Shown: one piece after another, positions 33 to 29,549 of the stretch | Layout: each line of letters opens with the position of its first letter | How positions within the stretch are numbered: position 1 is the first letter of the stretch | Origin: Daucus carota subsp. sativus | Lineage: Eukaryota > Streptophyta > Magnoliopsida > Apiales > Apiaceae | DNA: 64,000 nucleotides | Assembly: GCF_001625215.2 (NCBI RefSeq) | Contig: NC_030381.2 | Span: 50,987,214 to 51,051,213, forward strand | Reading direction: 5' to 3' | Notes under the pieces: generated by a model | Database searches by the model: none | Seen by the model: the letters and a program-made list of their open reading frames with translations, nothing else | Told to the model about the DNA's origin: nothing | Translations under genes and position numbers: made by a program

Positions 33-506
33 TCATGCATAACTACACATTCCAAACACACAAACATCTCCCTTCTTGCACTTGTTATGACACCCACCAC
101 AATGCTTTCTATCAAACGACGCATTTACACATTTCCCATTACAACATATTTCACTGTACTTGCATTTTTGCCCACACATTCCACAGTTTAGCCTGTCCTC
201 CTTGACATTTACACATTTTTTCTTGCAACAATCCGGCCCGGCACTGCCCTTCACTCGACAGACTCTTGGGAATTTGTTGCAAGTGTAACTAGATGGCAGA
301 CGCTTATTTCCTCGAAAGCGTCTGGATCTACGTAAGGAGGAACTCATGGTAGTCTCGTGGAGATCGGGTAGTATGATAGTGTCATCGGCATCAGATATTT
401 TCGCGGTGACATTATGCGAATGGGTCTGATCTGATGATGCATGTGTAAATGTTGTACATATTGTTGCTAAGAGAACATTGAAAAAGAAGAGTTTGAGATG
501 ATTCAT
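33..506 (-). CDS. STIG1-like secreted cysteine-rich protein
   Basis: A single-exon gene for 157 residues. Residues 1-24 form a hydrophobic signal peptide (Leu/Phe-rich run after MNHLK), so the product should be secreted. A basic, Ser-rich linker with RRSRRFRGNKR around residues 58-69 could be a processing site. The C-terminal ~85 residues hold 16 cysteines with paired CC, CGMC and CGGC spacings, which is the STIG1 domain. Family members act in the apoplast, for example in stigma exudate where tomato STIG1 promotes pollen-tube growth; others are expressed elsewhere. The length is normal for the family and no break is seen. Which STIG1 paralogue this is, and where it is expressed, cannot be told from sequence. 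A CT-rich leader precedes the start and an AT-rich TATA-like stretch lies near 570-585. Confidence 0.9.
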   Translation of the reverse strand: MNHLKLFFFNVLLATICTTFTHASSDQTHSHNVTAKISDADDTIILPDLHETTMSSSLRRSRRFRGNKRLPSSYTCNKFPRVCRVKGSAGPDCCKKKCVNVKEDRLNCGMCGQKCKYSEICCNGKCVNASFDRKHCGGCHNKCKKGDVCVFGMCSYA

Positions 507-2055
507 TCTTTTTGAATATGTAGATGTGGGAGTTTGAAGAGTTTAGTGTAGAAAATAAAGAGAGGAGAGGTGATTTAAATAATTTTAGTATGAAGGGGTT
601 TTTATAAGGTTCTCCACAGAGTTGACATCTAAGAAGTTGCAAGTTGTTAAAAGTTTGGTGAAATGAATATAGAACAGTACCTTATTGTACGAGTTCATAT
701 TGAATTCAAGAAAAAAAAATTGTAGACTTGCTGTGATACCCGGAGGATTAGGTGTCCTGTACCGGACACGGCCCAATTCTGCAATTCAATTTAGTGAGAC
801 AAAATCTAAATTATCCAAAAATCATCTAAAAATGACATAAATACTCAAATTTTAGTTTTATTCAATTTTAATTGATTTTAGCTTAACCCGAAATCGACAT
901 GTTTATCGACATGAACAAGATTTGTTATCAGAAATTATCGGAATTTCTTAATTGTTTCCTTCTTTCAAAATATATATTTCAAATCTTATATTAGAAATTC
1001 TCAAAGTTATTACTACAACTTTGCTGCAATGTAGTCTTGATGAGAATTTGCAGAGGAATATAATAAGAAAATTCAGTTTTGAAATTTGCCTTGCAAAGAC
1101 TTTGATATCTCATTTATTAATTTGGACTACAATATTTAACGAAATCAGAGTATATAACGAAACTAAAGAATTAGGCGGATATAATTTGGGATAAACGTCG
1201 ACTTGTGAACAGGAGATTGTGAAATCTTGGACTGGATAATGGATATGGTAGAAACTAGAAAGGAATGGGCACTAAAGTTTGGGTGCGAGCTGGTTTCAAC
1301 TTTAAGTCAGATGTTGACATGGCTTCCAAAATCCTGACGAAGGTGTTTGTTTCCCCCTCAAGTTGGTCCATTTCTAATACTAATTATAAATTGTTAATTT
1401 GTGTATAAATTCCAAAATCCTGGAGTCATATGTCCAGTATGAAGTATTAGCTTGTCCTCCAAGAACTGCAATTCCGGGGCTTCACTTTATTTCTCAGAAA
1501 ACTGGAAACACACTTGCTATTGCTGCATGCATGCTGATAATGTTTAATATTATGCTCAAAGGGAATAATAAACCTGAAATTAGTCTGCAAGTAGCATTTT
1601 CATCGAGTTTTCAGCATAAAAGATCTCAGGGTGCTGCATATCATCTTGGAGATCAAGATTGGATATAATAATGTAAGGATCAATATCATTTAGAGTTAGT
1701 TTACCAAGAAACTTTTACATGATGGTATCATCAATACCATGGCAGCTGCTTCCCTTGTGAAAAAAGATCACATGAAACATTAATTCACCAGGTAGACAGA
1801 ACACAGAAAAATATAACCAGCAACATATCAAGAAACATTAACATATTAATGCAAGTTCTAAGTAGCCTCTTTATCTTAAAAAATTCAACAGGTACAATAT
1901 TAATATTCTGTTCAAAATAATACCAAGCCATCAATTTGCATCAACATCTGCCATTCTGCCTTGTCAAAGTTTAGTTTCTTCATGAACCATCGGACACTGT
2001 GCCTCATCCCCACCACAAGCAATATTGCCTGCATTGACTTGCAATCATGCTATCA
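507..2055. other. Intergenic spacer, no gene recognised
   Basis: AT-rich DNA between the divergently placed STIG1-like promoter and the 3' end of the S11 gene. Short open frames occur on the plus strand near 952-1194 and 1399-1668, but their translations match no family I know and they lack splice or start context. The stretch from about 1700 to 2055 probably contains the 3' UTR of the S11 gene on the minus strand. Confidence 0.5.
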
Positions 2056-4395
2056 TCATATACGACGCTGCTTTCGAAGTCTGCATCCATTATGAGCTTT
2101 TCGAGTTGTATCTTCGATATAGACAATTGGATTTTGATCATTGCGAGAATTCGTATAACCATCTCTGAAGCTCAAAATTGCTTGCTTCTTTTTCTTGAAA
2201 AAGGTAGATCCATTCACTTTAACCACGAATGATTTCAATCCCATATTCTTGGCAAGTCGCCCGACATGCTCTGCAGCTGTATCAGCAGAATATTGAGTAA
2301 ATTTACCTCCCAGAGATCCTGACGAAGCCCCTATTTTTTTGTTACCCTTAGAGTCTGTTACAGTAACAAAAGCATTGTTTCGAATCAATTTAATATGCAC
2401 AATATCAGCAGTTTCTTTCTCAACTTCTTGATGAGAAAACTGAGGGCCTCGGAATCCATTGCTTCTATTTTCATTCATAACTCCTCTCACAAAGTTCATA
2501 GGTCTCGAGTCTCTCCCTAACTCAAACTCATTTGGTCTACCTTCATTCGTAACTCCTCTGACAAAGCTCATCGGTCTTGAAGGCCTTCCCGTCTCAAACT
2601 CAGTTGCTCTATTTTCATTCATAACTCCTCTGAAAAAGTTCATCGGTCTCAAATTTCTTCCCATCTCAAACTCATTTGGCCTATTTTCATTAGTAACTCC
2701 TCTGGCAAAGTTCATTGGTCTCGGATCATCCCCCGACTCAAACTCCTTTGGAGAAGCAGAATGTATGTAACTTCTAAAGTTTAAAGCACTGGGTAGAGAT
2801 GCATTATCATTCACTTTAAGAAAACCCCACTTCATGCCCAAGGATCCCAAGAAGTTGGGTGATGCATTGGCCAGAGTACGGGCATGATCTTTGGAATTCC
2901 TTGAACCTGTGAAACCACATATATTTATTTGCTACAAACAACAAGATAGAATAAAGACTATAGGTTTAACATTTAAGACCTCTGCTTTCTTAAAGTCTAT
3001 ATGTCACACGTCAATTCTCAAGCAAGTACTATGTTTTGTCTTTGTTAGAAAAGAGAATGATTTTTCATTTTAGTCGCCTACTTGGTTTAATTCTGCGCTA
3101 TATTCAGTGTAATCGTCATTATCCATTCATTATTGCTGGCTAAGTCAGGAGTTGACTAACTGACAACTAAATATTCCTGTCCAAAGGAAATAAAAAATTA
3201 AAAATGTTCCAAGTATTCAGCCTTCAGGAGCCGTCATTACCCAAAAACCCAAAAACTTGCGTCGACTTTCAGATTTGCAGTTGAATAAAAACTATTTTAT
3301 TGAATCAAATATGTGTGAAGCTCAACGGTTCCTGAAGACATTTTATTTAACAAATCAATACTCCTATAAGACTAAAAAAAGTCAAATAAATGACGACATT
3401 GATAAATTATGACGGTTATTAAATATTTTGATCAAGTCTTAATTATATATCTATCATGCAAATAAATCTTATAATTTACTAGTTTTATTAAAAAAAATTT
3501 AATACTCTCTCTGTCAAAAATAGTGTGGTATAAAAACTTTAAAAGTTAATAATTATATTTAAGTTGACCATAAATTATACATTACTTATTTATAGTTTAA
3601 TAAAATTAAAATAAATATTCAAGCGAACCGCAAAACCTGTAAATACCCATCAAAGTAAGAGTTGCATATTCACAAAATTGATAGACATCGAATTAATTTC
3701 TTCTTACTCTTTAAGTTCTCAGTTCTCACCATTGAAGCCAAAACTTAGGTAAATAACCAGTACCTACAGAGTACAGACCACTATAATAGAAAGGCATCCC
3801 AGTTACACTGCAGGGTTAGCTAAGCTTAACACTATAAGCCTCCGTTTGCTAACAAGAAATATAATTCAAAGACAAGCCATATTTACACTCATCTCACCAC
3901 ACTAGTCCACATGGACAAATCTAATCAATTTCAACTTCATTTCATGTGATTAAAACCTGTCCACATACATATTTCACAACACTCAAAATCTCGATATTTC
4001 GGCTTCAAGGGGTCATCTAAAAGGCCCTTAACTCTTATATCCATCTACAAAGACACGCACATAGCTAAAACTTGAAAATATAATCAATATTTCAAGATTA
4101 ACATGAACAAGTTCAAGATCCAAACTTTCGAAATGCGGGTAGAAATCAAAACGCGCCCAATTCAAGAAAACTAAAATTACACATAAAAATATACACACAG
4201 GATATATACATACACAATACAAAAATTCACATATAAATGAAGTTGGATAAACTTACCAGAGAAAGCACTGTAGTTCTGAGAAGGAGAGTTGAGATGAAGA
4301 GGGGTGGACTCAGATTTGGAGCCAAGGATCCGAGAAGCTTGATTGAGTGACCCGACCCGAACAGAGAAGCGAGAGATGGAGCGCGGATAGAACAT
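2056..4395 (-). CDS. Mitochondrial ribosomal protein S11 (uS11m), nuclear encoded
   Basis: Two coding exons, 4395-4257 and 2906-2056, give 329 residues (phase 1 junction; donor GGTAAGTTT, acceptor TTTCACAG). The N-terminus (MFYPRSISRFSVRVGS) is rich in Arg and Ser and lacks acids, as expected of a mitochondrial presequence. The last ~130 residues are the uS11 fold: VHIKLIRNNAFVTVTDSKGN near its start, GSLGGK in the middle, and the family ending HNGCRLRKQRRI. uS11 sits on the platform of the small ribosomal subunit and contacts rRNA near the mRNA exit. The counterpart in Arabidopsis is NFD3, needed for nuclear fusion in gametophytes. Between presequence and core lies an unusual array of 24-residue repeats (separate entry). 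The intron is 1.35 kb and AT-rich, with no recognisable gene. Confidence 0.9.
2460..2745 (-). repeat. 72-bp tandem repeat inside the S11 coding region
   Basis: About four diverged copies of a 72-bp unit encode 24 residues each, with the core RPMNFxRGVxNExRxxEFE and a variable G-R/D linker. They lie between the presequence and the conserved uS11 core. Copies differ by substitutions but none breaks the frame, so the array has been under coding constraint. The repeated residues Met-Asn-Phe-x-Arg-Gly-Val look like a short linear motif. Its role is unknown. Confidence 0.85.
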
Positions 4396-5170
4396 AGCTA
4401 TGGGAATTAGGGTTTTTGGTGAAAGCTAATCAGAACAGAGTTGGGCATATTTCTATACTTGTTCTCTGATTTATTTCTCACAAAAGCGAAAAAGAAAGTT
4501 GGAATAATTAGTTTTACACTTTACCAGTGTTAAATAATTTTTTCCCTGGGTCTTGTTTTTATAAGTTCAGCTTATCAGATAATTTAAGTTTATTAAATTT
4601 ATTATGTTGTTAATAAAATATTTTAATAAAGGAATTGATTGATTAAAATATATAAAATATTATACTAATTAAAAATTTATAAAAATTAATTTTGTTTATA
4701 AAATAAATGTGCCACCTAATAAATCTAATAATTATGAATTGCATATTTACATGTCACATTTTGAACAATCCCAAATTTTTAAGATTTAATGTAAGTTATT
4801 ATACAAGAGAAGAATAAATAGAATATATATTCAATGAATTTTTTTATCGTATATTAAATCTTAGATTTGAGTACTGATAATATGCATATGATAACTATTT
4901 AAATTATATATATACAAAAATTCAACATATAAACTATTGAAAATAGAAATATATTATAGAGTACAATATTAACGATCATGGAATTCTGTTCAAAAAGTTA
5001 ATGATTAATCACTATTAATCCATGTTCTATAACTTACCGAACTGATTAAATATTCAATTGATCAATTAATCATCCAATTAATCTCAATGCAATTTAATTA
5101 ATCACCGAACACCATAGCTTCACCAATTAAGTCGATTCTCGCTTCTTACCAGACTCGTGAAATCATATTA
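4396..5170. other. AT-rich intergenic region upstream of S11
   Basis: Holds the S11 promoter and leader (about 4396-4500, minus strand) followed by very AT-rich DNA with no open frame of note. It ends at the TTA target duplication of the Harbinger-type element. Confidence 0.5.
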
Positions 5171-5282
5171 TGCCCTGTTTGGTAACATGGATTTGATTTC
5201 AAATCCAAGATTTGTGCAAATCTCTTGTTTGGCAAATTTTAAAAATTCAGAATTTGGATTTGTTCAATTCCATCCAAACTTA

Positions 5283-5647
5283 GGGTCTGTTTGGGGGTGC
5301 TGTTAAAAATTGCTGTGTTGTCAGAAAAAGTGCTGGTAAAATAAGTGCTGTTGTAGAAATCAGATAACTGTTTGGTAATTTTTTGATATTTACTTATTTT
5401 GAGTTATAATATAAAAAGTAATAATGATTTTGGTGAGGTTTTATAATGAAATCTATAACAGCATTCTGCAAAAGCTGAAAAGCAGCTTTTTCTAAAAGCA
5501 TGGGACGGCCTGCTTTTTCTAACAGCAGCTTTTCAGCTAAAAGCTGCTGTTCGGGAAAGCTGCTTTTAGATTTACCAAACAGTTTTTCACCTGCTTTTCA
5601 GCAAAAAGCTGCTGTTGCTGTCTGCAACAGCAACCCCAAACTGTACC
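5283..5647. mobile_element. Tourist-like MITE nested in the Harbinger element
   Basis: 365 bp with terminal inverted repeats: left GGGTCTGTTTGGGGGTGCTG, right inverted GGTACAGTTTGGGGTTGCTG. It is flanked by TTA at 5280-5282 and 5648-5650. The interior is built from inverted AAAAGCTGCTTTT-type blocks (5470-5610) that could fold into a long hairpin. There is no coding capacity. Confidence 0.8.
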
Positions 5648-5816
5648 TTAAACACAAGTCAAAATAGAATAATTTGAAATGCCATTCCAAAACATGTCAT
5701 TTGAAATAAAAAAACTAAACGCACACTCCAGCTCCTCCTTCCCGATCCACTCTGCTGCTCGCTCCTCTTCTCCCCTGCTTTCACGCTGCTGCTCGCTCCG
5801 GCCATCCTTCCGTCTC

Positions 5817-5962
5817 CGAAGGTGCAATTCTCCCTCTCTCCACCTCTCTCTCTCCCTCTCCCTCTCGCTCCCTCTCGCTCCCTTTCTGCCTCTCTCTCTC
5901 TCCCTCTCTCTCCCCCTCTCTCTCTCTTCCTATCGCCCTCTCTGTATCTCTCTTTCTCCCTG
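5817..5962 (+). repeat. CT-rich low-complexity tract
   Basis: A run of imperfect CTCTCTCCCT units. Open frames across it encode only Ser/Leu/Pro repeats and are not genes. Such pyrimidine tracts are common in plant 5' UTRs, so it may be the leader of the ancestral transposon gene or of a captured gene. Confidence 0.8.
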
Positions 5963-6441
5963 TCTCTCTTGCCAGTATTGGATTATATTGTTATCAATTT
6001 GTTGCTTAATTTGATATTTATATGTATATATGTGCGTGTAATTGATTTCAGTGCTCTGATTTTTGTAATTAGGGTTTAACCTTCTGTATATAATCTGTGT
6101 GTATATGTATATTGTCCAGAACTGCTAGATGGCAGGTGATTTGAATTCTATCACAAAGACCTAATCTGTTGCCTATACAGTAGACGAGGTAAAATCAGGT
6201 TTGGGTGTTATATATTGTAAAAATTTGAATTAGTTGAGGAGTAATGATTCTCAATTATAGCCTACTCACTAGGTGCGTGCCTCGATATAATATTTCGGGT
6301 ACACATTTCCGATTTGTACACATTTCGCTCAGACTATCTGCTACTGTAACATACACTGTATTCACATAAATACGTCCATCTCTCCATGTTATATAGACCC
6401 CTCTCAATTATCATTTCACTGCTAGCTTAAGTGTTTGCGTA

Positions 6442-6552
6442 ATGGCAAAACGACTAAAGCTTCGCATCTCCAGAGCAATTACATCTTCCTTCCAGTCCTG
6501 CCATTCCAAAGACCCTTCCGTTTCGAATACAATCCAATACTGGCAAATCTAG
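6442..6552 (+). pseudogene. Captured OVATE-family protein 5' fragment
   Basis: A 36-codon frame, MAKRLKLRISRAITSSFQSC followed by HSKDPSVSNTIQYWQI and a stop. The start resembles the basic N-terminus of OVATE family proteins (the MAKRxKLRISRVI...SFQSCRSKDPS type), which are plant transcriptional repressors. The OVATE domain itself is absent. About 50 bp upstream is GTTATATAGACC, a plausible TATA box, so promoter plus start codon may have been captured together. Assignment rests on remembered N-terminal similarity only. Confidence 0.5.
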
Positions 6553-6730
6553 AAACATGAAAGTTGTGCTTTTGGTCAGTTTAATTAGGAATTTGAGCTA
6601 TAGAACTAGTTACAATCCAAGGAGTCTCAGTACACGCAAACCTTACCTTTAGTCTCATAAATAAAGAGCACTTTGGAAATAAATGAAGGAATAATATAGA
6701 GAAATATATACTAATTAAATGAGCACTAAC

Positions 6731-6957
6731 CCTCTTCCGCATGAATTCGATTTCAGCAAATAGAAGTTCATTTTGCAGTTTATATATTCTGAATCAGTAC
6801 TTCAACAAGTAATTCTTATTAGGAAATAATCAGCATATTCTATGAATGTATAAGGACCTTTTTGGAGCGGACTCTGCAAAGTCCATTCTGTAGTTTAGTT
6901 TCCAGGCCTTTAAGATCCTTGGCTGGCAAAGACCCCAGGGCTTCGCCCATCAGATGC
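6731..6957 (-). pseudogene. Captured AGAMOUS-clade MADS-box K-domain exons
   Basis: Two exon remnants in correct order on the minus strand. The first (6957-6858) is exactly 100 bp and translates as HLMGEALGSLPAKDLKGLET then KLQNGLCRVRSKK. The second (6772-6731) is exactly 42 bp and reads NELLFAEIEFMRKR. These sizes and sequences match the K-domain exons of AGAMOUS/SHATTERPROOF/STK-type MADS genes. The first exon keeps a CAG acceptor and GT donor, and the second keeps its GT donor. The base pair that should be the second exon's AG acceptor is AA, so it could no longer be spliced normally. There is no MADS domain, so this is a gene fragment. Confidence 0.75.
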
Positions 6958-7328
6958 CTGTATTATATGCAGATGTTTTGAATTCTAAATCTAGAACTGT
7001 ATAATTAGGTCGTTTTGTAACCTTCTTCCTGAATTTGAAGTTTTTTCTAAGTATATAATTTAGACTTATATTATAAATAATATGTTGAGACCTGTGGTAT
7101 TTCTGTTGCGACTTTGTGCTTAAAGATTTATGATTTAATAAAAAACCTGTGAAAGTGAATTGAATAATTTTTAGAAGTCTGCCTATGTGTCTGCCTATGA
7201 TTTATGATTTCACTGCTCTCATTTTTGTGATTAGGGTTTAACTTTGTGTATATAATCTGTGTAGTTGTCATTTTAAATTTCTGCTCTCATTTTAAAATTT
7301 TAAATTTGTGTATATAATCTGTGAAAAC

Positions 7329-7517
7329 ATGGAAGAAACAACATATATGCAAGAGGTTGAAGAAGAGCTAGAAGCTATGGAAGCAATTGATGTGGAAGAT
7401 AAAGAAGAGGATTTCATCTCAACTGCTCGATCTACCAATGAGTGGACTGAATTTAGAGATCAACTTGCCAAAACAATGTTTGAAGAATATCTAGTAGGAG
7501 GGACTGGAGTTCTATGA
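7329..7517 (+). pseudogene. PIF/Harbinger transposase C-terminal remnant
   Basis: An acidic stretch (EEELEAMEAIDVEDKEED) leads to STNEWTEFRDQLAKTMFEEY and a stop soon after. The W-x-x-(F/W)-R-D-x-L-A-x-x-M-(F/W) pattern is what I know as the C-terminal tail of plant PIF/Harbinger transposases (HARBI1/ALP1-like nuclease family). None of the DDE catalytic core is present. This fits the TTA duplications of the enclosing element. Confidence 0.55.
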
Positions 7518-7959
7518 CTTTTATACATTTTTTCTATGTGGTTCTGTGGGTTGTCATGTTAAAGTGCAGCACGATTTTCGCTTGCATTTATAATGGATTC
7601 ATTTGATTGAGAAATGCCAGCATTCTTTCTATTTATTTACATACATACAGCTCATAATCTAAAGTGTGAGGGTCTGGTGTACTTGATCCTAAACACTTGA
7701 ATCAGAATGTTACTGGCCTCTTCTGCTGGGAAGTCATCATCTGATTCAGGTATACTTTTTTGTTCAAAGATAAGGTAGAATCTTTTCTGAATTTTGATTG
7801 TGATATTAACTTGTAATTCGAAACTGTTTATTGGGTTTTTGTTTTTATCAAAATCTTGGAAATTTATGAAAGATGGAAACTCCTATACTTGCTCCATGTT
7901 TTAATCTTTCTGCTTTCTCAGTCTTTTTCCTCATGCTAAAGTCTTTATGCACATTCCAG

Positions 7960-8384
7960 AATACTATTACTTGTCGAATCTCGATCAGAATATTGCTTCA
8001 ATAATTCAGACAGTGTATTGTTTTAAGCCTGATGGTGACAAGAAGAACACAGAAGGTGTTGGACTTGTTATAAGAGAATCTGAGATGGTTTACAAAGCAT
8101 TCAACTTCGATCAAGAGAAGCTAATGAGGTTAAAGAAGTTGATCATGGAAGACGGGACCATCAAGAACTGCTCCACATTTGTGGCCCTCACGGCCTTGGT
8201 GTGGCGGGCAAGAACTGAAGCTCTTCAGATGAAACCAGACCAACAACTCAAGCTATTATTTGTTGTTGACGGAAGATCAAGATTGGTGAATCCTCCCTTG
8301 CCGAAGGGCTATTTTGGGAACGGGATTGTGCTAGCGTGTAGTGTGAGTAATGCCGGAGATTTGGTGAACAAGCCATTGTGCTAG
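7960..8384 (+). pseudogene. Captured, internally deleted BAHD acyltransferase fragment
   Basis: After a splice-like acceptor (ACATTCCAG) an open frame reads [20 protein letters not shown], near the start of BAHD proteins of the omega-hydroxyacid/fatty-alcohol feruloyl/caffeoyl transferase clade. It then jumps to mid-protein sequence: [30 protein letters not shown] and [14 protein letters not shown]. The part that should carry the catalytic HxxxD motif is missing, as is the C-terminal DFGWG motif. The deletion kept the frame. The frame ends in a 50-bp tandem repeat. It cannot encode an active enzyme. Confidence 0.8.
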
Positions 8385-8457
8385 CGTGTAGTGTGAGTAA
8401 TGCCGGAGATTTGGTGAACAAGCCATTGTGCTAGCGTGTAGTGTGAGTAACGCCGGA
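8326..8457 (+). repeat. 50-bp tandem repeat at the end of the BAHD fragment
   Basis: About 2.6 nearly identical copies of a 50-bp unit that includes the codons for [19 protein letters not shown]. Copies 1 and 2 are almost perfect, so the duplication is recent compared with the gene fragment. The second copy shifts the frame and supplies the stop codon. Confidence 0.9.
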
Positions 8458-9089
8458 TTGTGCTAGCATTTCAGATATAATTTCAGGTTTCTGCAGTATA
8501 GTTATCAGTGCTTGATTAGCATTTTTGTGTTAAGGTTGAGATTCTTGAATTTGGTATTTTTGTTTGATCAATTATACATGTCTCTGTGAAGTTTTTGTAT
8601 TTTTGTTTGAATTTTATCTTAGACTTTATTTGTAATTTTGAATGAGATTAAATATCTATCTTCATGTATCGCCAACTTCAAAATATTATTTAGATAAATA
8701 TTCAAGTACGCATTTGTGATTAAATTTGGAGTTATGATTAAGTTTTTACGTAAAAATTTGTTTAAATTTCAAATTCAGCTTTTGAAATACTAAGATATCC
8801 CAAACAGTGGATTTGGATTTCAAATCCAGGATTTGAAATTCTAATATTCCCAAACAATGGATTTGGATTTCAAATTCTGGATTTCAAATTCTGGATTTGA
8901 AATCCTACATTTCAAATGAAATCCATGTTTCCAAACAGCACCTTATTGGAAATGAGGCGTGTACCATGAGTTCTGAAATATATAGCTGAATTGGTTTTAT
9001 TTGTGCGCTTCGGTTGTGCTAAAAAGGTCCAACAGCACCTCCTTATTCTTGTGCTAGTTTAGAAACATCTCGTCTATCCTCTCTCTGCA

Positions 9090-12000
9090 ATGGAGCTCCT
9101 CTCCCTCTCAACCCCTCTCTCCTCTCACTCTCTCTCCGCCCTCTCTCCCCAAAGACTCAAACCCATTTCATCTCCTTCCGTTTCCTTCACACCCATCAAG
9201 TCTTCTCAGCAATTAGCCTCCAAGCCCACTCCCCCAAACGCCCTCAGCTTCCAAACAATCAAGCCCAACCCCACTCTCCACTTCACGGCATCAGCGCCGC
9301 CGTCCCAGGCCATGAGGGGCGGAGACACAGATGCAATGGGCCTCTTGCTTAAAGAGAGAATTGTCTTCTTGGGCTCTCAAATTGATGACTTTGTTGCTGA
9401 TGCTATTATTAGTCAGCTGCTTCTGTTGGATGCTCAAGACCCCACTAAAGATATCAGGCTTTTTGTTAACTCTGTTGGTGGATCCCTCAGGTATATATTT
9501 AGTTTTTGTGTATTTTCGATGTTATCTCATGTTCTTGATATTTATTTCAGTAAAATATTTATGGATTTATTGAGTCTATAGCATCAGACCGGAAAATTTT
9601 GATAGTTTCTCTGAGGTTAAGTATACCCTTAATTGAAAAAAGTGTTCATTTGATTGAGGTTTTTGTTTCTTGATCATACATTCTTTGTGCTAAAGTAAGA
9701 ATCTGGATATGGAAGAGTTTTAAGCAATGATAAAATGTAGGATTGCGAGATATTTTGAATACGCGAATGAAAGGGGAAAGGCCTGTAATTTTATGGAGGT
9801 TCATGTTCTTTATCAATTATTTAATTTAGTAGTTATAGATTGTAATGAGAGTATAAAAATGTAAGATATGCAAGATAATTCTAATCAAGACTAAAGATTA
9901 AGAAGACTGGAAGATGCTTAACTTCTAGTGAATTAGAAATTCGGATAGTTGTTGAATTAAAGCTGAAGAGTTGGTTGTGTATCTGATGGTAATGCATAGT
10001 AGTTGGTTTTAATGGAGGATGAATACAGTAAAGCTAAGAAGTTTGTCTGAAGTTTAGATTGGTACATTAGATCTAGGAGGTGGGGTTTCAACTTTCAGGT
10101 GGGATTATTTTGAGAAGAAATAAAGAATAACATTTATAAGGTATATTGACATGCCATTTGGTTGTCTTATTAGCCAGTGTTATCTTAGTTTGAGATCTAG
10201 AATAGGCTTTTTTTGGCGTTTGTTGGTTATTAATAATGCAGAGTTGGTACATAATGGCCATGTTTGGCAATTGGCGGTTAGCAGTTAGCTATTACCGGAT
10301 TGAATGAGCTGTTTTGACTAGGTGATTGCGGTAGCTCTTTGGACTAGCAGATTAAATTAGATGGTTTGTGTGCAACTGTTTGGTAAATAGTCGTTCACTT
10401 AGTTTTTTGCATCTTTTTGAAAATTAGCTTTTTGAATCTAAACCACTATTTCAATCTGCTAACTACTAAACACCAAAATTAGATGATTCTCTTGGTCAAA
10501 TCTCTAATATGACCCAAATCTTTAATTTCTCCTCAAACCTCTAACTTCCAAACAGGGCCAATATGACTATTTTTCCTTCGTCATATCTTGTGGCAGTTGG
10601 TATATTTATTACATACAAGCAATCAACTTTATAATTCTGCTACTAGAATAATAATTCAACTTGTTGGAACTTGTAATTTTGCAGAGGAAATGAAAACTTT
10701 AATTATTGAAAACATGATAACAAGATCCTAAAACTTGTCTCCAGGTTCTGGTATCAGGGTTGAAGACTTAAATTCTTTACATTCTTTTCACCTTCATATT
10801 ATTTGCCAATTCAATCAAACTTCCTTTGTTTCTTACTATTAATATTCAGAATAGGCTGACAAGTTTGAATCTGCGAGTCTTTTGAATCACAAGTTGTAAT
10901 ATGGACTTACTTGAGTATTTTTACTCAGAGTACATGGTCAACATCTGGAAGGTTAAAAACAACGAATTGCTATCTACAGTTCTCGATGCTAGAGTTTCTC
11001 TTCTTTTTATTCTTGCATTCATAATGTCAAGAGGCTGGATTGTCAAAACTTCATAGGGCCTTAGCTTTCTTTGATTACCCTCATATTTAGTACTTGTTCA
11101 GGCACAGGTTAGGCTCAACACTGTGCCATGGCAGTGATCCTCACAAGACACACCATACGTAATTTAGTATGGGTAACTCTTGTCTAGTGTTGGATGGATG
11201 GTCGGTCGATTGCGTGTGTTACTTTGCATGAATTGGCTACGACCTGAGGAGTCGTGATTGGGTTCGCGGCTCGATATAAGGATCCCTTTTTAAAAATTAA
11301 TTTTATCAAACATTATACACATATAAATAAATAAATAAATAAATAAGCAAATACATGTTACTAATTTACCAGCTAGTTTACTAATTTACAGGTTGTAACA
11401 TCGTCAAAATATTAAGGCACAGTGCTTTCAGAAGCTCAGGATCATAGCCTTTAGTTCCATTATAGGCAAAGGCTATGATCTTGTTAAGACAAGCCATGCA
11501 TATTTTACTATGGGTTACTAATTACTATTGTCTAATAAGTAGTTAGTAGGGTATTGTATGCCCTTGGTGGTTATCTGTGCACGTCCAATTGGTTGTGGCT
11601 GCAGATTCCAACAGTTGAAAAAAAGAATTATGGAGAAGGTAGTAGATAATACATGTCGAAGACAAGTAACTATGTTACTTGGATACATATATGGGTGTCA
11701 CTTGTCACGGGTTCTGATCCAAGTGCGAAATTGGACATGGGTACGAGGACTCGCATGTTAATTATGCGTAAATGAAATTTATATAACTTATGTTCATTCT
11801 ACATTGTATGAAATAGTGCCTACTAATCATAAATTGTGTACACCTAATTTTATAGGTCAAATTCATTGCATAAAGTCACAAGGACTAAATAAATACACGA
11901 CTTCGAGATACATTTTTCTTTATAGGCAAGTTGTGGGGGTGGCTTATATTTCATGTTGAACTGGATTACTGTAAGGTGAGGTGCCCAGTTTCAAGTTAAA

Positions 12001-17364: not shown

Positions 17365-20300
17365 ATGGAGGACAGAAGGTACTCCGATTTATATAGAAAC
17401 TCAACTGAAGAGTTGTTTATAAAGACCTTGATGGAGGGATCATCTGGTATGCCAGTGCCAACAATGGATATGCTAGGTTTCAAGAATCTTTCTCAAAACT
17501 TCAGAGTAGATAGCGAGGAACTCTTCAATAGCTGGCTTACAAACGGAGAGGCAAGAACTTGTGCATATAATTATCTCTAGTATGCATTTTGAATTATCTT
17601 TAGTATATTTTGGTCTATCTGACTATCTTGATTACATAACTGACCTTGATCTGTTTTCTGTTCCTTTTCAGAATCAAGTCAATAATTCAGCAGGCATAGC
17701 TCATCGAACTCGGCAAGCATCACGAAGGTTTGTCACTTTGAGAGTCTAGAATTTTTTTTAATGAACTTTGCAGCAGCGCTTAGCATAGAGTATTTGACCT
17801 TCACAGTGCTAAACCCCCACACCTTGACATATACACTATCTGTTTTATTTTGTTTTCAACTTTTCCCCTGATTTAGGCTGTTTCATGACCACATTCACAT
17901 TCCCTTCAAATCTTTCTGATTTGCTAACATAAGATTATGTGTTATATAGCTCTGATACTACAGAAATTTCTGTTTTTGTTTGCTTATTACTCCCTTTTTT
18001 GTAAGTGCCATGTGTTTCGCTCTATTGAAATGTTTTTCATTACTGGATAGGAGATCTAATAGTCTTCAATAACTAGTAACTGCTGAATGAAGACTTTGAT
18101 TTTGATAATGCAGAATTACCTCTGAATTGCCCATTCTGCCAAATCAGCACAATGCAGCAATACCACAGAAAAGAAGCAATGAGAACCCAACACTGGAACA
18201 CGCTTGCATTGCTGAAGAATCTTTGGACCATTTCAATCAGCATCCTACCAGGTAGCTTGTTCTTGGCCTGCATCATGCATTCTTCACCAGTGCAACAATT
18301 TTGACTGAATCTATGTATCCCCTCTTTAGTTCTCTTCTTGTTTACAATATGAGCCCACCTTCTTGAATAACCAAATGAATCCCCTTTTTAACAGCAGTGT
18401 GGTGGAGACAGGGGCACCAGCTAGTAACCTTTACTTGGCTAAGGTCTGTTTACATTAAGCCATGCAAATGCATCACATTAATAAGAAACTCATTTTAATA
18501 TCTATATCTGACCTTTTAGGCATGGTTCCATAGTTCTCAGCCCATGACGAGAAGTCGCTCATCTGAATTAAGGTAAACTCCTGTGATAGCTTTCATTTTC
18601 CAAAACCTTCACATGATGATCATATATGCAAAGTAAATATACTTGCTGCGACTAAATATTTGCAGGAAACGATATGTTGCTTTACAAAATTCGCAGACAG
18701 CATTTGGCATCGAAGCTATGAATAATCTTAATGCTTCTGGACATGGTATTGGTAATTTGCAGCAGGATCTTACAAATTCAAATGGATTTAATAAAGCTTT
18801 ATTTTCTGACATCCCCAATCCGCTCAATACGTTCATGTCTCCATCAAATTCCTCGTCGTCTAATTTCAACTCCCCTCATATGGGTACGATAGATAATGTG
18901 TCTTCTGTTGTGAGCATGCTGAAAGGTTCACTGAAACGCAAACGCCTTGATAACCAGATTGAAAAATCTGGTGAAGATCGGTCATTAGGCTATTATGATG
19001 CTCAAGAGATCGTAGGTGATCCTAGTTTGATTCAAGAACAAGAAAGACATATTTACGAGGCACAAGGAAGTTTTCAAGATACACATGCTCACCAAGCTCT
19101 TGGTCCTGGGGTCCTGCAAACAGTTCATGGATTAATGGATATAGAAGAAGAAATCTTAGCTCCAGCAAATCAAGTTCAAATAAACACTGTATCTCGGGAA
19201 CAGTCACAGAGCGAATCTTGTGCTGCTACACCTGCAGTTTCCATTGGTTTAGATGCATATGATGGTCCCAGCAACTCAGGTCAGGCTCCGAGCCACTGTG
19301 AAAGCTCAAAAAAACAAGTTGGAAATGAGAATATTTCAGAAAATGGGATAAAAGCCAAAGGTAAGAGCAGCCGAGCAAGCTTATCTGAAAGTACTCACAA
19401 AATTTAACTGTTTTTTAAAATATTCCTGTTTAACTTAATCTGCTGGAAGCTACTGTCTGTCAAGTTTATCTGTAATATTAGCTAGCTTTTATCATAAAGT
19501 TAGCAACCATATATTCATGAAAAAGAAAAACAAGCATATCAGGGCAGTCCTGTAATTTTGTAAAAAGTTACATTGGTTTCATATCAAATTTACCTCTCTC
19601 ACGATTCACTGAACTTGAATATATGGAGATGCAAACTAGATTATCACACCCCTAAACTAAGAGTGCATTAGATCCGAAGAAGAGTTCAGGTCATTATTTT
19701 TTAAATATAGGACAATTTTGGTAAAAGTTATATGGCAGCCTTGTTGGCTACTACCAAAATCTCCTACAATTTCTCTTTCTCCAAGTATATCTCTAGTACT
19801 GAAGCATCTTCATTACAGATGTCAGAGAACGGATAAACAATGCCCTAAAAGACGATCGCCAGGTATTTATGACGAGCCCTTTAATTTCTTAGAGTGCCAG
19901 TGTTTTTTAAATTGTTACTGCTATTCTAAATTCGTATTTCATCACTTTATTTCCCTTCCAGCAAAAAGGAGGTTTGGTGCGATATGGCTCTGTAACATCA
20001 GCTGGTTCAGGTTATTAATTTTGTTTGAGATCTAGCATTCATAACTCTGTGCAATAAATCTGGTATTCTGTGTGATCTTAAGGTCTAAGAAGAAATGTAA
20101 TACTACCTCCGTCCCTTTTTACTTGTCACTTTGACTTTTTGCACGTAATTTAAGGTGAGTAAAAAACATAATTCCGCTCATTATTTTTAAAATTTTCTTT
20201 CTGTGAATAAAAATATAAACTATAAACTTTAATTCAGAAAAAGAAAATTTTTAAAATAATAAGTAGAAGTATGTTCTTTAATCACCTTAAGTTACGTGCA

Positions 20301-22030
20301 AAAAGTCAAAGTGACAAGTAAAAAGGGACGGAGGTAGTAGTATATAGTCATTAATATCTCGTTGAAATGTCCTAAATCATGCATATGTCCTTCGTGATAG
20401 AGTTCAAGGAATCTCTTCCTTAGATATTATACAATAGCTTGTTATTACGGCAAAAGGAAGATAAGAATTTGTAAAGAGAGTCCAGTGCAGAATTACAGCC
20501 AACCACTTGGAAAATTCTAAATATGTGATTACAAGGAAGATACATGCCCTTGGCCAAGTGTAGGGATCTCTCTTAGATGACAAACATTAGACTTGTTAAA
20601 GTTGCCAAAGGAGGAAAATATAAACTTGGAAAATGAGTCAAATGCAGACTATAACCTAAAACTTAGACAAGTAAAGGTTTGCTTACTATCATCCTGCTGC
20701 AGCTCATAAAGTGAAAGGCCTAATAGAACTGGTAGCTTTAGTACAAGGTGACTGAAGAATACTATTCAAGTCATTTAATGCCATAAGAAAATGAATTTTG
20801 TATACTGAGGATAACAAATTGTGTGCACAGACCAGCCAATACCATTTATGACTAGTGTATAACATTGGCATTTTCTCTGAGTATATGCATATGTTTAATT
20901 TTTTTTAAACATTAATTATTTTGCAGCAGATAAAACCGATCCAACAAAGAAACGCAGAGTGGAGCGGTCACGGAAGTAAGTATAGTATTGCATTCACTTC
21001 TAACTATTGTGGATTCAGTATTTATGTGCGTTTTTTTGATTATTTGAAGGAATCATAAGCAAAAAGAGAAATTAGGTGGTTCAGTGTGTGTTTGATTTGT
21101 GCACAAGAGTTCAATCATTATATGTTACCTGTGCCTGGAAACATCCAACATGACGACATGGATAAATGTTCACATGTCTGACTCAACCATATTTTACCTC
21201 TATTTTAAATTAACACAAGTTTTGGTCCAAAATGAATTGGTCCATTCCCATGTCCGATTGTGTAACCTGGACTTAGAGTAAAGTAACGTAGTTGTCGAAA
21301 GCTCTGTCAAACACTATGATGCCTAGGGAAAAACCACATCAGACTAAATTAGGTAAGAAAAACTGCTGCAACTTAATGTACAGAATGATCATCAAATCAG
21401 TTAAAGGAGACTCCAAAACAACTATGAGAGTAGCTGGAAAAAACATGATGCTCATAAATTAATTTAAAAGTAAGATGCATCTTGATATATCATTTTCTGT
21501 TCACTTATCTGCTTGAATGAATAGCAAAGAAATGACAGATGCATATGTTACTCCATTTCTTTCCTTCATTAATATTGTTAATAACTAAATTTCATATTTT
21601 CATCAAGTATATATTTTAACAGGTTAACATAAATCACTTTTGAATGATGCAGGATGGCAGAAGCAAAGGAAAGAGTTCTCACGCCAGTAATTCCATCAGA
21701 TATGCAGTCTGTTTTAAAGCGCTGCGAAAATCTTGAGAAGGAAGTGCGATCACTGAAGCTAAACTTGTCTTTTATGAATAGGTGACAAAAAACATAATTT
21801 ACTTGTCTTTTCATCACCAAACTTTCCAGTACCTTATTATTCTGATAGATTAGAGTCCAAAAGAGAACTACTTGTAACAAATAAATGCTGGTTATTAATA
21901 TTGCAGAAAGGACTCCGAACAGACAAAGCAGATAGAAGAGCTACAGAAGCAAAACAAGGATTTGATAAATGAAAAGGAACGGCTTCTGGAAGAAATCGAA
22001 AGGATATACTCGGAGACAAGCAAGATGTAA
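17365..22030 (+). CDS. CYCLOPS: CYCLOPS/IPD3 symbiosis transcription factor
   Basis: Nine exons (17365-17550, 17672-17727, 18114-18251, 18395-18443, 18520-18572, 18666-19360, 20927-20975, 21653-21781, 21907-22030) join in phase to 492 residues; legume CYCLOPS/IPD3 has about 515. The start MEDRRYSDLYRNSTEEL, the block AWFHSSQPMTRSRSSEL and the ending SETSKM are family signatures. Ser50 lies in RVDS, matching the CCaMK phosphosite S50 of Lotus; Ser157 in RSRS probably matches S154. KKRRVERSRK is a nuclear localisation signal. Two heptad-rich helices (CENLEKEVRSLKLNLSFMN and QIEELQKQNKDLINEKERL) form the C-terminal coiled coil. With CCaMK and DELLA it activates RAM1 in mycorrhiza, and NIN in nodulation. 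The first intron begins with GC (GAG|GCAAGA) and exons 4 and 7 have NAGNAG acceptors. All domains look intact. Confidence 0.95.
20103..20337. mobile_element. Stowaway MITE in CYCLOPS intron 6
   Basis: 235 bp between TA dinucleotides. The ends are near-perfect inverted repeats beginning CTACCTCCGTCCCTTTTTAC and extending about 60 bp, including CACTTTGACTTTTTGCACGT. This is the Stowaway (Tc1/mariner) signature. The arms are so alike that insertion is probably recent. It lies well away from splice sites. Confidence 0.92.
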
Positions 22031-23690: not shown

Positions 23691-24385
23691 CATCCATCGC
23701 TCACATGTGTTTTTGAATTAACTTTGAAAATTTATAGGCTGAATTTATAGGCTACCGTCTATCGAATTACTATATTCGATTTGTAATTTTGTTTGATTTT
23801 CGTGTTTTTATCCTTATCTTGTTATTTCTAGTGATTTTCATTTGATAGGATTTCTATTTATTTTAAATATTCGCTTATGTTATATCCATTTTTTAGAGTA
23901 GAAAATTAAAAAATACATTTTTTTGAAAAATTCATTTTTTATTTTTGATTTACCTAGTTATCAGTTTATATGAGTACTATTTGATGTGCAACTGCAAATA
24001 TGTTTTTCGGTTGGATTTGTTATTCTGAATTCCTAAATTTTCTAGGCAAGATTGTAGTTTCTGGATGATATTCCATTTATTTAAATTTTAGAAATAAGTT
24101 ACGGCTTTTTAGTTGTTTAGGTGAAGTCTAGGATAAGTCTTCTGTAGCAGTTTTTTCTGAAAAACATGCGAAAAATTGTTTGAAAAATCTAAAAATAATT
24201 TTTTCAAACAGTAACTTCTAGCTGAAAAGCTGTTTTTAAAAAAAAACAAATCTCTCATATTTTTAGAAAAAACTGCTCTTCATTTACACAAAATTGTTGC
24301 AAATATCACTATCAAACATCATCGAAAACATTACCTTTTAATTATAATTTAAAATAAATAAATATCAAAAAATTATCATCAGAAA

Positions 24386-24600
24386 CTCCATCCGTCCTAA
24401 CCAATAGTATATACTGGGGGATGGGATGCGACACAAATTTTAATACTTTCACAAAATCTAGTTCTATAACTTATTTTTTAGATTTTAAATTTTTATACAA
24501 AATAAGAAAATTTTAAAAATAAATTACATAACTATATTTTATAAGAGTTTTAAAATGATATTCCATGAAGCGTATACAATTAATTGGGACATAGGAAGTA
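24386..24600. mobile_element. Degenerate Stowaway-type MITE
   Basis: The left end CTCCATCCGTCCTAACCAAT and the inverted right end TACTTCCTATGTCCCAATTA are worn versions of the Stowaway terminus (CTCCCTCCGTCCC...). The interior is AT-rich. It appears older than the copies at 20103 and 38520. A worn Tourist-like terminus CCCAAACGGACCC just outside (24652-24664) suggests it may sit in another MITE. Confidence 0.55.
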
Positions 24601-24767
24601 TCTAATTTTTACAACAAAATTTTTTTTACCTCCACATTTTCTAACAATAATCCCAAACGGACCCTAATTTTAGGATTTTTTTTTTTTGATTTTCAGATAT
24701 TTAAATTTTATATTATCTAAATATATGGGATTATATGGGATCAGTATGGATCCGGTTTTAGAAAGGA

Positions 24768-24925: not shown

Positions 24926-25468
24926 ATTAATTGTGGCTTAATTGTGAGCTTAATTGTCTCAATTGTTAGTTATCATGATTGTGGGAATATTTTGATCTGC
25001 ACTTGCAACATACACGTGTTTTTAATAATAATTATTTATTGGATATATATAATCTGTTACATATATTGACTTATATTCTTCTTGTTTTCTTTGTTTTATT
25101 TTCAGGATTCTCGGAAGAAAACTAGTTTTTTTTTCAGATATTAAAGTTTTATTGTCTAAATTTCTCCGATCATTTTACATGTCCGACGATTAGATAATAA
25201 GTTTTCTTGCATGAAAGAATTATCACGGTGAATTACCGATTCATATTCGTTGAGATTTATTCTAAATTTTAAAAAATATTGATTTAAATTCGAAAAATAT
25301 TACGTGGCCGTTAAGAGCTCCGAATCTCCCTCACCGATAAATTACTAATAATTAATATTTAATTTAATGAAATTAATTGCTACAAAAAGACCATTCACTT
25401 TCCTCTTTGCCCACAACTCTACGATACAAATACTCAAAAATAACTCAAAACCGCCCACAACCCCTGTA

Positions 25469-25478
25469 TTTTCGCGCC
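25469..25478 (+). promoter_or_regulatory. E2F-type binding site upstream of RPA1
   Basis: TTTTCGCGCC contains TTTCGCGC, which fits the plant E2F consensus TTTSSCGC exactly. It lies about 135 bp before the RPA1 start codon in otherwise AT-rich DNA. E2F control of replication and repair genes is well established, so the placement fits S-phase or damage-responsive expression. Occupancy is inferred. Confidence 0.6.
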
Positions 25479-25610
25479 CATCTCAAAAACTTCCTCAACA
25501 CTCTCCAATTTCCTAGGGTTTCAAATCTCATCTACACAGTAAAACACACAAATATAAACAGACCCATTTTCTCAAAACCCCATCTTTATTCACAAATCAA
25601 AACACTGAAA

Positions 25611-28600
25611 ATGGTGAATTTGTCAGGAGGGTCAGTTGATATGATATGCAACAGCAAAGATAAGCATGTGGATATCAACCCAATACTTCAAGTTCAAGAT
25701 GTGAGGATTGTGCAGACCACTAATTCAGCTTCTGAGAGGTACAGATTGTTGCTGTCTGATGGGGTTTTCACTGTTCAGGGGATGCTTGCTACTCAGAACA
25801 ATGATCTGGTGAAGGCTAATAAGCTGGTGAAAGGGTCTGTGGTGAAGCTCAATGAGTTTGTTTGTAATCGCATCCAGACTCGAGTGTATGTATCTTTTCA
25901 TCTCTTTGAATGTTTTTTTTGGGTTTTGTTGTGTTTTTGCTTGGTGGGTTCTTGTTTTTTAGGTTATGTGTGTGAAAGTGTTGGGCTTTTGGTGCTTTCT
26001 TGATTTAAGGTTTTACAAGATTGGATTGGATTTTGGAGATTGGTTTGTTGTTGTTGTTTGTGTGGAAATGTTGGGTTTTCGATATGGGGTTCTTCGATAT
26101 TGGATTTTGGAGATTGGCTTTCGTTCTTGTGTGGAGAATGTTGGGTTTTGATTTTGATTTTTTTTATATAATATGGGGTTCTTTAAATTTGGATTTTAGA
26201 GAATGGGTTATTGTTCTTGTGTGTGAAATTGTTTGATTTTGATTGGGTTTTTAATTGGGATTCTTTAAGACTGGATATTTGACATTGATTCTTGTTTATG
26301 AGTGTGAACTGTTTGGGTTTTAGTATCTTTTGATATTGGGTTCATCAAGATTGGATTTTGGAGATTGGTTTCTTGTTTTCCAGTGCTTATTTTTGGACTA
26401 TTTTACTTTTTTATTTGTGGAAGTCTCGGGGCCAGTTATTCTTATGTGTTTGTATTTGATCTATAAATACTTGGAATTGAATGGTGCAATAAGTCGAAGA
26501 GACCGGAAGCCAAACTTGAATTGTAATAAAATGTAGAAAACATTGAGGTTTTACGTTACTAGTAGGTGGATAACTTTGATGCAAAGCTAAAGTTCAGTAT
26601 TTTGTTGGAATTGCAAGTGGAGAATGAAACCCAAATATGATTTTATATTTTTAGAAAAAAACTAGATATAAAAATAAATTTCAGTTTGTTAAATTTCTGT
26701 ATATGTGTGTACTGTCAGCTAAATAAGAAAGATCCCTAGTTTGCTTTTATTGAACTTGTAAAACTTAATATTACGAGTAGTAATGTTTATCATCGTTTTA
26801 TCCTCGTCTAGGAGTATTTCTAAACAATTATGTGGATTCAATATTACTATGTCTGATTCAGAGACGCTCTAAGATTCAATCCTCTAAACAAATATCACTG
26901 ATGACTTATTTGAATCCATATGAAATTCTTTATTCATTTCTGATGTTGTGTTATTGATGTCAATAATTTTGATTCAGGATAATTATAATTGTCAATCTGG
27001 ATTTGGTACTAGAGCAGTGTGAGACAATTGGTGATCCAAAACCATATCCACCAATAGTTGACGGTCCAGCAAAACCTTCCCCGGCTTCTAACATAAGTCA
27101 CAGCGGAAATTCTAATAATCCTCAATATCACAATGGAAATTCAGTTGGTGCTGGGTTAATGCCTAACAATGAAAATGTAGGTGTCGGAAGTTATATGCAG
27201 GCTCCTGGACAAGGTAGGAGTTCTGGTCCGCCTTTATACAATAGCTCTCTTGGCAGTAAAGCAGAATCAGGACAATATAATCAAACAACTTCAGGCTTTG
27301 GATATTCAAACACAGAGTCTGCTACTGGAATTTCACGATCACCTATGAATAATCATGTGCGTCCTATTCAGCCAGCATATCCTCAGGTACCTCCAATGTA
27401 TGGAAACAGGGGACCAATCGCAAAAAATGGAGCACCTCCAAGGATTATTCCTATTGCAGCTCTTAATCCATATCAAGGTAGGTGGACAATCAAAGCCAGA
27501 GTGACAGCAAAAGGGGCTCTCAAACGCTACAGTAATCAGCGGGGTGAAGGGAAGGTATTTTCTTTTGATCTTCTTGATTCTGATGGTGGAGAGATACGTG
27601 CAACCTGCTTTAATGCTGCAGCTGACCAGTTCTACCACCAGATTGAGGATGGCAAAGTATATTTAATTTCTAAAGGCACGCTGAAACCTGCCCAAAGAAA
27701 TTTTAATCATCTCCCTAATGACCATGAAATTATGTTGGACAGCTCCTCCACAGTGGAGCCTTGTTTTGAAGGTGAACACTCAATCCCGCAACAGAGATTT
27801 CAATTTCGGTCTGTAGCTGAAATTGAAGGTATTGAAAATAATACCGTTATTGATGTCATTGGTGTTCTTTGCTCTATTAGTCCATCAAGCCCGATAATGA
27901 GGAAAAATGGCACTGAAACTCTGAAGAGGGCTCTCCACATCAAAGACATGTCTGGAAGAAGTGTTGAAGTAACTTTGTGGGGAGATTTTTGCAATGCAGA
28001 AGGACAAACACTACAAAACATTTGTGATTCAGGGGTATTTCCTGTTTTGGCTGTGAAATCTGCTAAAGTAAGTGACTTTAATGGGAAGGCTGTAGGGACA
28101 ATACCTACTAGTAAGGTGATTATAGAGCCAGATATCCCCGAGGCTCACAACTTAAAAGCTTGGATGGAGACTGATGGAAAGAATGCTCAAGTATCTTCTA
28201 TATCCAGGGAGACAGCAATAGGAAGGCAAGATGTTAGGAAGACTATATCACAAATCAAAGACGAAAAACTAGGGACTTCTGAGAAGCCAGATTGGATCAC
28301 AGTAGCTGCTACTCTATCATATCTTAAAACGGACAATTTCTGCTATACTGCATGTCCCCTAAAGATCGGAGAACGACAGTGCAACAAAAAAGTTATAAAC
28401 AATGGAGATGGAACGTGGCGATGTGAGAGGTGTGATCAGTCTGTTGAGGAATGCGATTATAGATATATACTCCAGTTTCAGATACAGGACCATACTGGCT
28501 TAACATGGGTAACTGGATTTCAGGAAATCGGCGATGAAATTTTTGGTATTCCTGCAAAAGATTTGTATATGATGAAAAATGAGGACCAAGATGATGAAAA

Positions 28601-29549
28601 ATTTTCAGAATACGTCCGCAAGATTCTCTTCAACAAATATTTGTTCAAGTTGAAAGTGAAGGAGGAGACATTTAGTGATGAACAGCGGGTGAAGTCCACT
28701 GTGGTCAAAGTAGATAAACTAAATTTTGTATCCGAGACTAGAGGTCTCTTGGATTTACTTAATAAGCTTCAGGGGGTTGACTCAAGTTCAGTAGCTTTGA
28801 AGTCTGAAAATTCTGTTCTGAACACTGGAACGAATAATGCTGCATATGGTAGTTTTGGGATTAAGGAGTCTGCACATCCTAAAGTCAACTATACGGGAAA
28901 TGTTAGTTCTGCTGGTCAAGGGATTGGGTTGCCAGCAAGTCAAGTAGGTCAGTTTGGGAACCAAAATGTTGGTTCTAGGCTTGCATCAACTGGGCCGACT
29001 AATGCATATATGATGTGTAGTACCTGTGGTGGAATGGATCACAGCAGTAATAATTGTCCAGCTGCTATGGATGTTCAAGAGCATTCATATGGTGGAGGTT
29101 TCAATAATCAGACGATTCCTGCTGGCAGTGGCAGCACTGGGGGTGGTGGCAGTGGTAGTGGACAGTGTTACAAATGTCATGAACATGGTCACTGGGCTAA
29201 TAATTGTCCCAATGCTAGGAGTGGGCTTCCAGGTTATGGGAGTGGCAATGTTTCTACTTCTGCTGGTGGTGGTGGCAATGGTGGTGAGTGTTTCAAATGT
29301 CATCAAAATGGTCACTGGGCAAAAGATTGTCCCAGTGCAGGGGGTGTGACTTCTGGTTATGGGAGTGGCAATGTTTCTGCTTCTGCTGGTGGTGGTGGCA
29401 ATGGTGGTGAGTGTTTCAAATGTCATCAAAGTGGTCACTGGGCAAAAGATTGTCCCAGTGCAGGGGGTGCGACTGCTGGTTATGGAAGTGGCAATGTTTC
29501 GTCTGGAAGATACGGAAGTGCTTCAAAGCAGTATGTGGGTGGCTACTGA
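25611..29549 (+). CDS. Replication protein A 70-kDa subunit, zinc-knuckle (RPA1C/E) type
   Basis: Two exons, 25611-25885 and 26978-29549, give 948 residues (phase 2 junction). Order of domains: RPA1N OB fold (1-105); Ser/Gly/Asn linker (110-245); DNA-binding OB folds A (about 250-360, from IPIAALNPYQGRWTIKARV) and B (370-480, from EIEGIENNTVIDVIGV); fold C (530-715) with the embedded four-Cys zinc ribbon (CP...RQC...WRCERC); then CCHC zinc knuckles, one weak (CSTCGGMDHSSNNC) and three canonical (CYKCHEHGHWANNC type). RPA coats single-stranded DNA with RPA2 and RPA3. In plants, forms with C-terminal zinc knuckles group with RPA1C and RPA1E, linked to DNA-damage repair rather than bulk replication. 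After the stop, ATGCAG|GTAATA could begin a 3' UTR intron. Confidence 0.93.
26015..26385 (+). repeat. Tandem repeats in RPA1 intron 1
   Basis: Four to five imperfect units of about 75-90 bp, each beginning near (A)TTGGATTTTGGAGATTGG, containing TTCTTGTGTG(G/T)AA and TTGGGTTTTGAT, and ending GGGTTCTT. All are T/G-rich on the plus strand. They produce long open frames (F/L/V/W-rich) that are not coding. Confidence 0.7.
29223..29505 (+). repeat. 123-bp tandem repeat encoding RPA1 zinc-knuckle units
   Basis: Two nearly identical 123-bp units (41 residues each), with a part of a third, each give GYGSGNVS(A/T)SAGGGGNGG, then CFKCHQ(N/S)GHWAKDC, then PSAGG. The starts of the repeated text fall at 29246, 29369 and 29492, exactly 123 bp apart. 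High DNA identity points to recent in-frame duplication or gene conversion of a Gly-rich linker plus knuckle module. Confidence 0.92.

Follow-up and report, generated by a model that had tools for sequence, protein, structure and literature searches.

Fragments of two or more host genes in a probable Pack-PIF element next to a carrot ClpP gene

The capture of host gene fragments by PIF elements was described in 2022 for maize and rice and termed Pack-PIF (PMC8903248); in Arabidopsis, no new Pack superfamily was found in that survey. A maize Pack-PIF cluster described there has terminal inverted repeats (TIRs) of 15 nt and comprises groups averaging 402 and 535 bp, which captured 163 and 58 bp, respectively. 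In 2008 it was reported from the grapevine family Pifvine-3 that PIF elements carry exons together with introns of the host (PMC2528002). TIR elements with host filler are also known from animals as Pack-TIRs, and for the single-copy cases among them gap filling with template switching was proposed (PMC8277862). Abortive gap repair was likewise put forward as a general account of the proliferation and rearrangement of PIF elements in Medicago (PMC2213677). For carrot, the DcMaster-a TIR of the PIF family DcMaster is tabulated in PMC6327408. We describe an element at positions 5171-8942 of a stretch of 64,000 nucleotides from Daucus carota subsp. sativus (contig NC_030381.2, positions 50,987,214 to 51,051,213 of the forward strand), which is called the window and is numbered from its first letter. 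This element of 3.8 kb, in the following the outer element, is bordered by TTA on both sides and is with good probability a decayed, single, non-autonomous PIF/Harbinger-type element (Pack-PIF), in which fragments of two or more host genes are enclosed (Table 1).

The borders of the outer element, its TTA flanks and its inverted ends had been proposed in a sequence-only reading of the window and were confirmed. The inverted arms (5175-5213 and 8900-8938) comprise 39 nt, of which 33 are complementary (85%). If the ends are anchored at TTA they match at 31/40 positions, the top score among 409,831 TTA pairs that lie 150-8000 bp apart in the window. The runner-up pair reaches 26/40, and the best pairs in 30 Markov-shuffled windows score 24 to 27 of 40. 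Aligned locally, the 60-bp ends score 51, compared to at most 36 in 2000 Markov resamples. A longer target duplication was considered and rejected, as no 8- or 9-bp duplication was seen by eye in the flanks.

The case that the ends belong to two unrelated small miniature inverted-repeat transposable elements (MITEs), with ordinary intergenic pseudogene debris in the middle, had been raised together with the original proposal. Further MITE-like insertions are indeed present in the window, and MITEs are common there. However, the next-best partner of the left end matches at 21/40 (scan of partners ending at 5270-12000) and that of the right end at 22/40 (scan of partners starting at 2000-8840), and TTA stands at the exact border of both. 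As each end is the best partner of the other, far above the next-best one, the two ends belong together. Two separate MITEs were rejected on this partner scan and are a very unlikely origin of the locus.

Between the ends, the sequence-only reading had named two minus-strand exons of a MADS K-domain and a BAHD acyltransferase fragment, and both were verified. The larger MADS exon matches the K-box (PF01486, E=7.7e-10), and the peptide spliced from both exons matches AGAMOUS with E=7.9e-13 versus 0.005 for SEPALLATA3 and 0.013 for SVP. Because the E-value for AGAMOUS is far below the two others, the donor was most likely a gene of the AGAMOUS clade. Exon sizes of 100 and 42 nt are typical of MIKC MADS genes, and we take the two exons to be exon 4 and exon 5, respectively. 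The 42-nt exon has kept its GT donor and shows AA instead of AG at the acceptor position. The intron between the exons was kept, and capture therefore took place at the DNA level and not via RNA.

The later part of the BAHD fragment matches the Transferase family (PF02458, E=1.2e-16, profile positions 219-319 of 434). The fragment also matches 22 distinct PDB sequences, with a hydroxycinnamoyl transferase on top. In NCBIfam only a sub-cut-off chance match was obtained for this piece (E=0.1), and a scan of prokaryote genome contigs with the fragment brought up 0 relatives among 120 pattern matches, which is to be expected of a plant sequence. The first part of the fragment resembles an N-terminus in a non-significant alignment (-1.4 bits); if this alignment is right, the fragment would carry an internal deletion of some 175 residues (PDB chain positions 60 to 243). 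Its reading frame terminates within a 50-bp tandem repeat. The frames in the outer element are broken, and a protein is most likely not made from it.

The stretch from 6442 (MAKRLKLRISRAITSSFQSCHSKDPSV) is presumably the start of an OVATE family protein, and a TATATA motif lies at 6390, upstream of its ATG. A bacterial promoter scan, which is a type of scan ill-suited to plant DNA, found 0 promoters in 6200-6460. Of the three unrelated host genes claimed initially, the MADS and BAHD families are thus verified as donors, whereas OVATE is a probable third.

The 3-bp TTA/TAA duplication of the PIF/Harbinger superfamily is present at both borders of the outer element (5168-5170 and 8943-8945), and its TIRs contain the core CTGTTTGG. 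In addition, we take the open reading frame (ORF) 7308-7517 to be the C-terminal tail of a plant PIF/Harbinger transposase. On the duplication, the core and this putative tail, the element would file best under PIF/Harbinger, of which non-autonomous members are by definition without transposase. The full sequence of the outer ends says little on the superfamily: they match seven published TIRs at 7/20 to 14/22, and the left end fits the OsPIF1 TIR at 10/15, which is tied for the best of 3,724 TTA sites. With the DcMaster-a TIR, each outer end agrees at just 14/22 positions, whereas the two ends of a MITE nested in the left arm agree at 21/22 and 19/22 (PMC6327408); therefore the outer element probably belongs to a family other than DcMaster. 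The name 'Pack-Harbinger', under which the element had been proposed, was not met in the literature among the matches listed, and 'Pack-PIF' was met in one paper. It is well supported that the locus is a unit with TTA duplications in which host DNA was captured, whereas its assignment to the superfamily depends in part on the putative tail.

Host coding sequence (K-box, Transferase, AGAMOUS) lies between TIRs and duplications, as it does in Pack-TYPE (Pack-PIF) elements. Like Pack-PIF of maize and rice, the carrot element has probable PIF-type ends and duplications, mostly TTA/TAA in those species, around host gene fragments; unlike the maize cluster, it measures 3.8 kb, its ends are longer, its host DNA comes from two or three donors, and a remnant of a transposase is probably present (PMC8903248). 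Pifvine-3 is likewise a PIF family of a dicot and has members with host exons and introns. The extra DNA there makes up the 5' part of elements from a transposase-coding family, measures up to 3.5 kb and is sometimes common to several copies, whereas the carrot element keeps just a putative transposase tail (PMC2528002). Pack-TIRs share the host filler but have animal hosts, and the word Harbinger is absent from the main text of that study (PMC8277862). Capture by PIF elements had been regarded as rarer in print than that by Mutator, Helitron and CACTA elements; in view of Pifvine-3 in 2008 (PMC2528002) and Pack-PIF in 2022 (PMC8903248) the newness is smaller than this implied. No PIF element that combines fragments from three gene families was met in the excerpts of mostly non-subscription literature that were examined.

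Table 1. Features of the outer element and its borders (positions in the window).
Feature	Position	Strand	Basis
Left target-site duplication TTA	5168..5170	.	Sequence; TTA-anchored pair scan
Left terminal inverted repeat and subterminal arm, outer element	5171..5282	+	Inverted repeat; 31/40 TTA-anchored match
Nested MITE, 365 bp, in left arm	5283..5647	+	TTA at 5280-5282 and 5648-5650; pair scan
CT-rich leader-like stretch	5731..5969	+	Tandem repeat rows
58-bp direct repeat, copy A, left of OVATE and MADS block	6043..6100	+	Repeat scan
Putative OVATE-family-protein-like start, 27 codons from ATG	6442..6522	+	Translation
21-bp inverted copy (20/21) of 5969-5989, at OVATE/MADS junction	6526..6546	-	Inverted-repeat scan
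MADS exon 5-like, 42 nt, NELLFAEIEFMRKR	6731..6772	-	Spliced-peptide match; borders
Intron, 85 nt, between the two MADS exons	6773..6857	-	Exon borders
MADS exon 4-like with K-box, 100 nt; splice acceptor AG, splice donor GT	6858..6957	-	K-box PF01486; AGAMOUS match
58-bp direct repeat, copy A', right of OVATE and MADS block	7205..7262	+	Repeat scan
ORF of 69 codons, putative transposase tail	7308..7517	+	ORF
BAHD acyltransferase fragment, open 145 codons	7947..8384	+	Pfam, PDB, ORF
50-bp tandem repeat, 2.7 copies, first two identical	8325..8457	+	Tandem-repeat rows
Right TIR and subterminal repeats	8766..8942	-	Repeat scans; TTA-anchored pair scan
Right target-site duplication TTA	8943..8945	.	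Sequence; pair scan

The block with the OVATE-like start and the MADS exons is bordered by two copies of a 58-bp direct repeat, which are identical at 53/58 positions; the repeat scores 43, compared to 15 for the best of 100 shuffles of 5976-8740. We propose that the locus goes back to one old transposon of the PIF/Harbinger type, a non-autonomous Pack-PIF, which entered a TTA site in the space between two divergently oriented genes, and that its transposase was lost, save perhaps the tail. A break or an excision would have been followed by interrupted gap repair with template switching, by which host DNA was acquired. Repair copying would have left the element, taken up foreign DNA and re-entered upstream of the exit point, leaving the 58-bp direct repeat. 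In this way parts of an AGAMOUS-clade MADS gene (reversed and with its intron) and of a BAHD acyltransferase gene would have been taken up at the DNA level, and probably also the beginning of an OVATE gene together with its promoter. Movement of the element, if any, would need a transposase supplied from elsewhere. The CT-rich stretch 5731-5969 probably derives from the parent element, and the 21-bp inverted copy at the OVATE/MADS junction is possibly filler DNA. The two copies of the 58-bp repeat differ at 5/58 positions, but an age estimate on this basis was not adopted, since the repeat may predate the capture.

A different origin would be the fusion of two neighbouring PIF-type elements, which were mobilised as one after their inner ends had been lost or mutated and carried the DNA between them along. 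This has been modelled for the origin of Pack-TYPE elements with PIF examples (PMC8903248), and the repeated subterminal units in the right arm could be scars of such an event. However, the pieces come from unrelated gene families, one of them is reversed and one apparently internally deleted, so that several events would be needed, and within the scanned ranges no candidate for an inner end scores higher than 22/40. Fusion is regarded as rather unlikely, and we favour acquisition by interrupted gap repair. The gene pieces might also have arrived in another capturing element of the Helitron or Mutator type that was nested within the PIF element, as the 21-bp inverted pair (5969-5989 and 6526-6546) encloses the OVATE-like stretch. 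But this pair has no matching flanks by eye and leaves the MADS and BAHD pieces outside, and we consider such an element quite improbable; Helitron ends were not searched for.

Several points weigh against the interpretation as a single Pack-PIF element. A second good copy of the outer ends was not found in the window: the left end reaches at best 26/40 at 3838 (+) and 25/40 at 61115 (-), the right end 24/40 at 3857 (-), and within 8 substitutions over 31-32 positions no further copy of an end is present in the window. The first four bases of the two outer ends differ at three positions, and their agreement with the DcMaster-a TIR is equalled by other TTA sites in the window. A transposase domain (DDE, Myb-like ORF1) was not found in the stretches scanned with Pfam. 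The putative tail ORF gave only sub-cut-off matches in Pfam and NCBIfam (E=0.094, chance) and had no PDB match at E<=10, and the OVATE-like piece matched 0 Pfam families at E<=10 and 0 NCBIfam families. Both of these names had been given in the sequence-only reading and look plausible. The 58-bp repeat extends weakly by about 40 bp, which could mean an older repeat, and the 21-bp inverted copy is marginal, as it is equalled in 5/100 shuffles. In addition, the stems captur and transduplic are absent from the text of the Medicago PIF survey, where capture is no noted feature (PMC2213677). The region 3838-3896, where two of the above matches lie, faintly resembles both outer ends and is perhaps an old remnant or a product of chance.

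The nested element 5283-5647 is a DcMaster-like MITE, with the TIR of this family and a 3-bp duplication; its ends are the best of 3,723 TTA sites for the DcMaster-a TIR. It interrupts the left arm of the outer element, which would resume at 5651, and therefore the outer element is older than this insertion. A relative on the minus strand at 24146-24664 is 76% identical over 242 nt, with a further 49-nt piece at 80%. This relative is degraded and has a MITE-like insertion inside at about 24383-24595 (borders by eye). In a TAA-anchored pair scan one pair, at 20086-20354, scored slightly above the outer element with 32/40. This pair marks a MITE-like element of its own, which has extended inverted repeats and an end of the CTACCTCCGTCCC type as in Stowaway elements.

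The outer element lies between an RPS11-like minus-strand gene, whose ORF 2059-2850 contains an S11 domain (E=1.5e-10), and a ClpP gene (E=4.5e-16), the start codon of which is at 9090. We infer that the start codon of the RPS11-like gene is at 4395, in a first exon joined to this ORF; without the outer element the two start codons would by arithmetic lie 919 bp apart. The distance from the right TTA to the ClpP start codon is 144 bp. The sequence-only reading was silent on this distance, as it was on the nested MITE and on the repeats around the OVATE and MADS block. The insertion may have displaced the upstream part of the ClpP promoter. A TATATA motif is found at 8979, between the outer element and the ClpP start. 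The RPS11-like ORF encodes an N-terminal extension at about 2450-2730 (minus), in which a RPMNFVRGVMNENR-type motif occurs four times. Elsewhere in the window, a gene for a STIG1-like cysteine-rich protein is found at 33-506 (minus; PF04885, E=7.9e-30). A large ORF at 27003-29549, which encodes replication factor A domains and behind them zinc knuckles, adjoins an ORF at 25377-26003 with an RPA N-terminal domain, and the two probably form one RPA1-like gene. The Rfam scan of the window gave 0 matches at the gathering threshold.

The main present effect of the outer element, if it has any, would most likely be the new DNA directly upstream of the ClpP gene. It could be imagined that the OVATE promoter or the right end next to ClpP drives transcription through the element and across the AGAMOUS-clade exons in reverse; antisense or small RNA would then silence a floral MADS gene in trans, and ClpP expression would come under control of the element, but this is highly improbable. 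According to a 2026 review, fragments of unlinked genes may be picked up by DNA transposons through a mechanism yet to be discovered (PMC13317346). The carrot locus is a clear case in which a PIF-type element took up DNA from more than one donor; two donor families are verified, and an intron was retained. One example cannot settle the mechanism of capture; the repeats that border one captured block could help to tell gap repair from the fusion of neighbouring elements. Capture by PIF elements is already in print, and the carrot element is a fairly well preserved further case.

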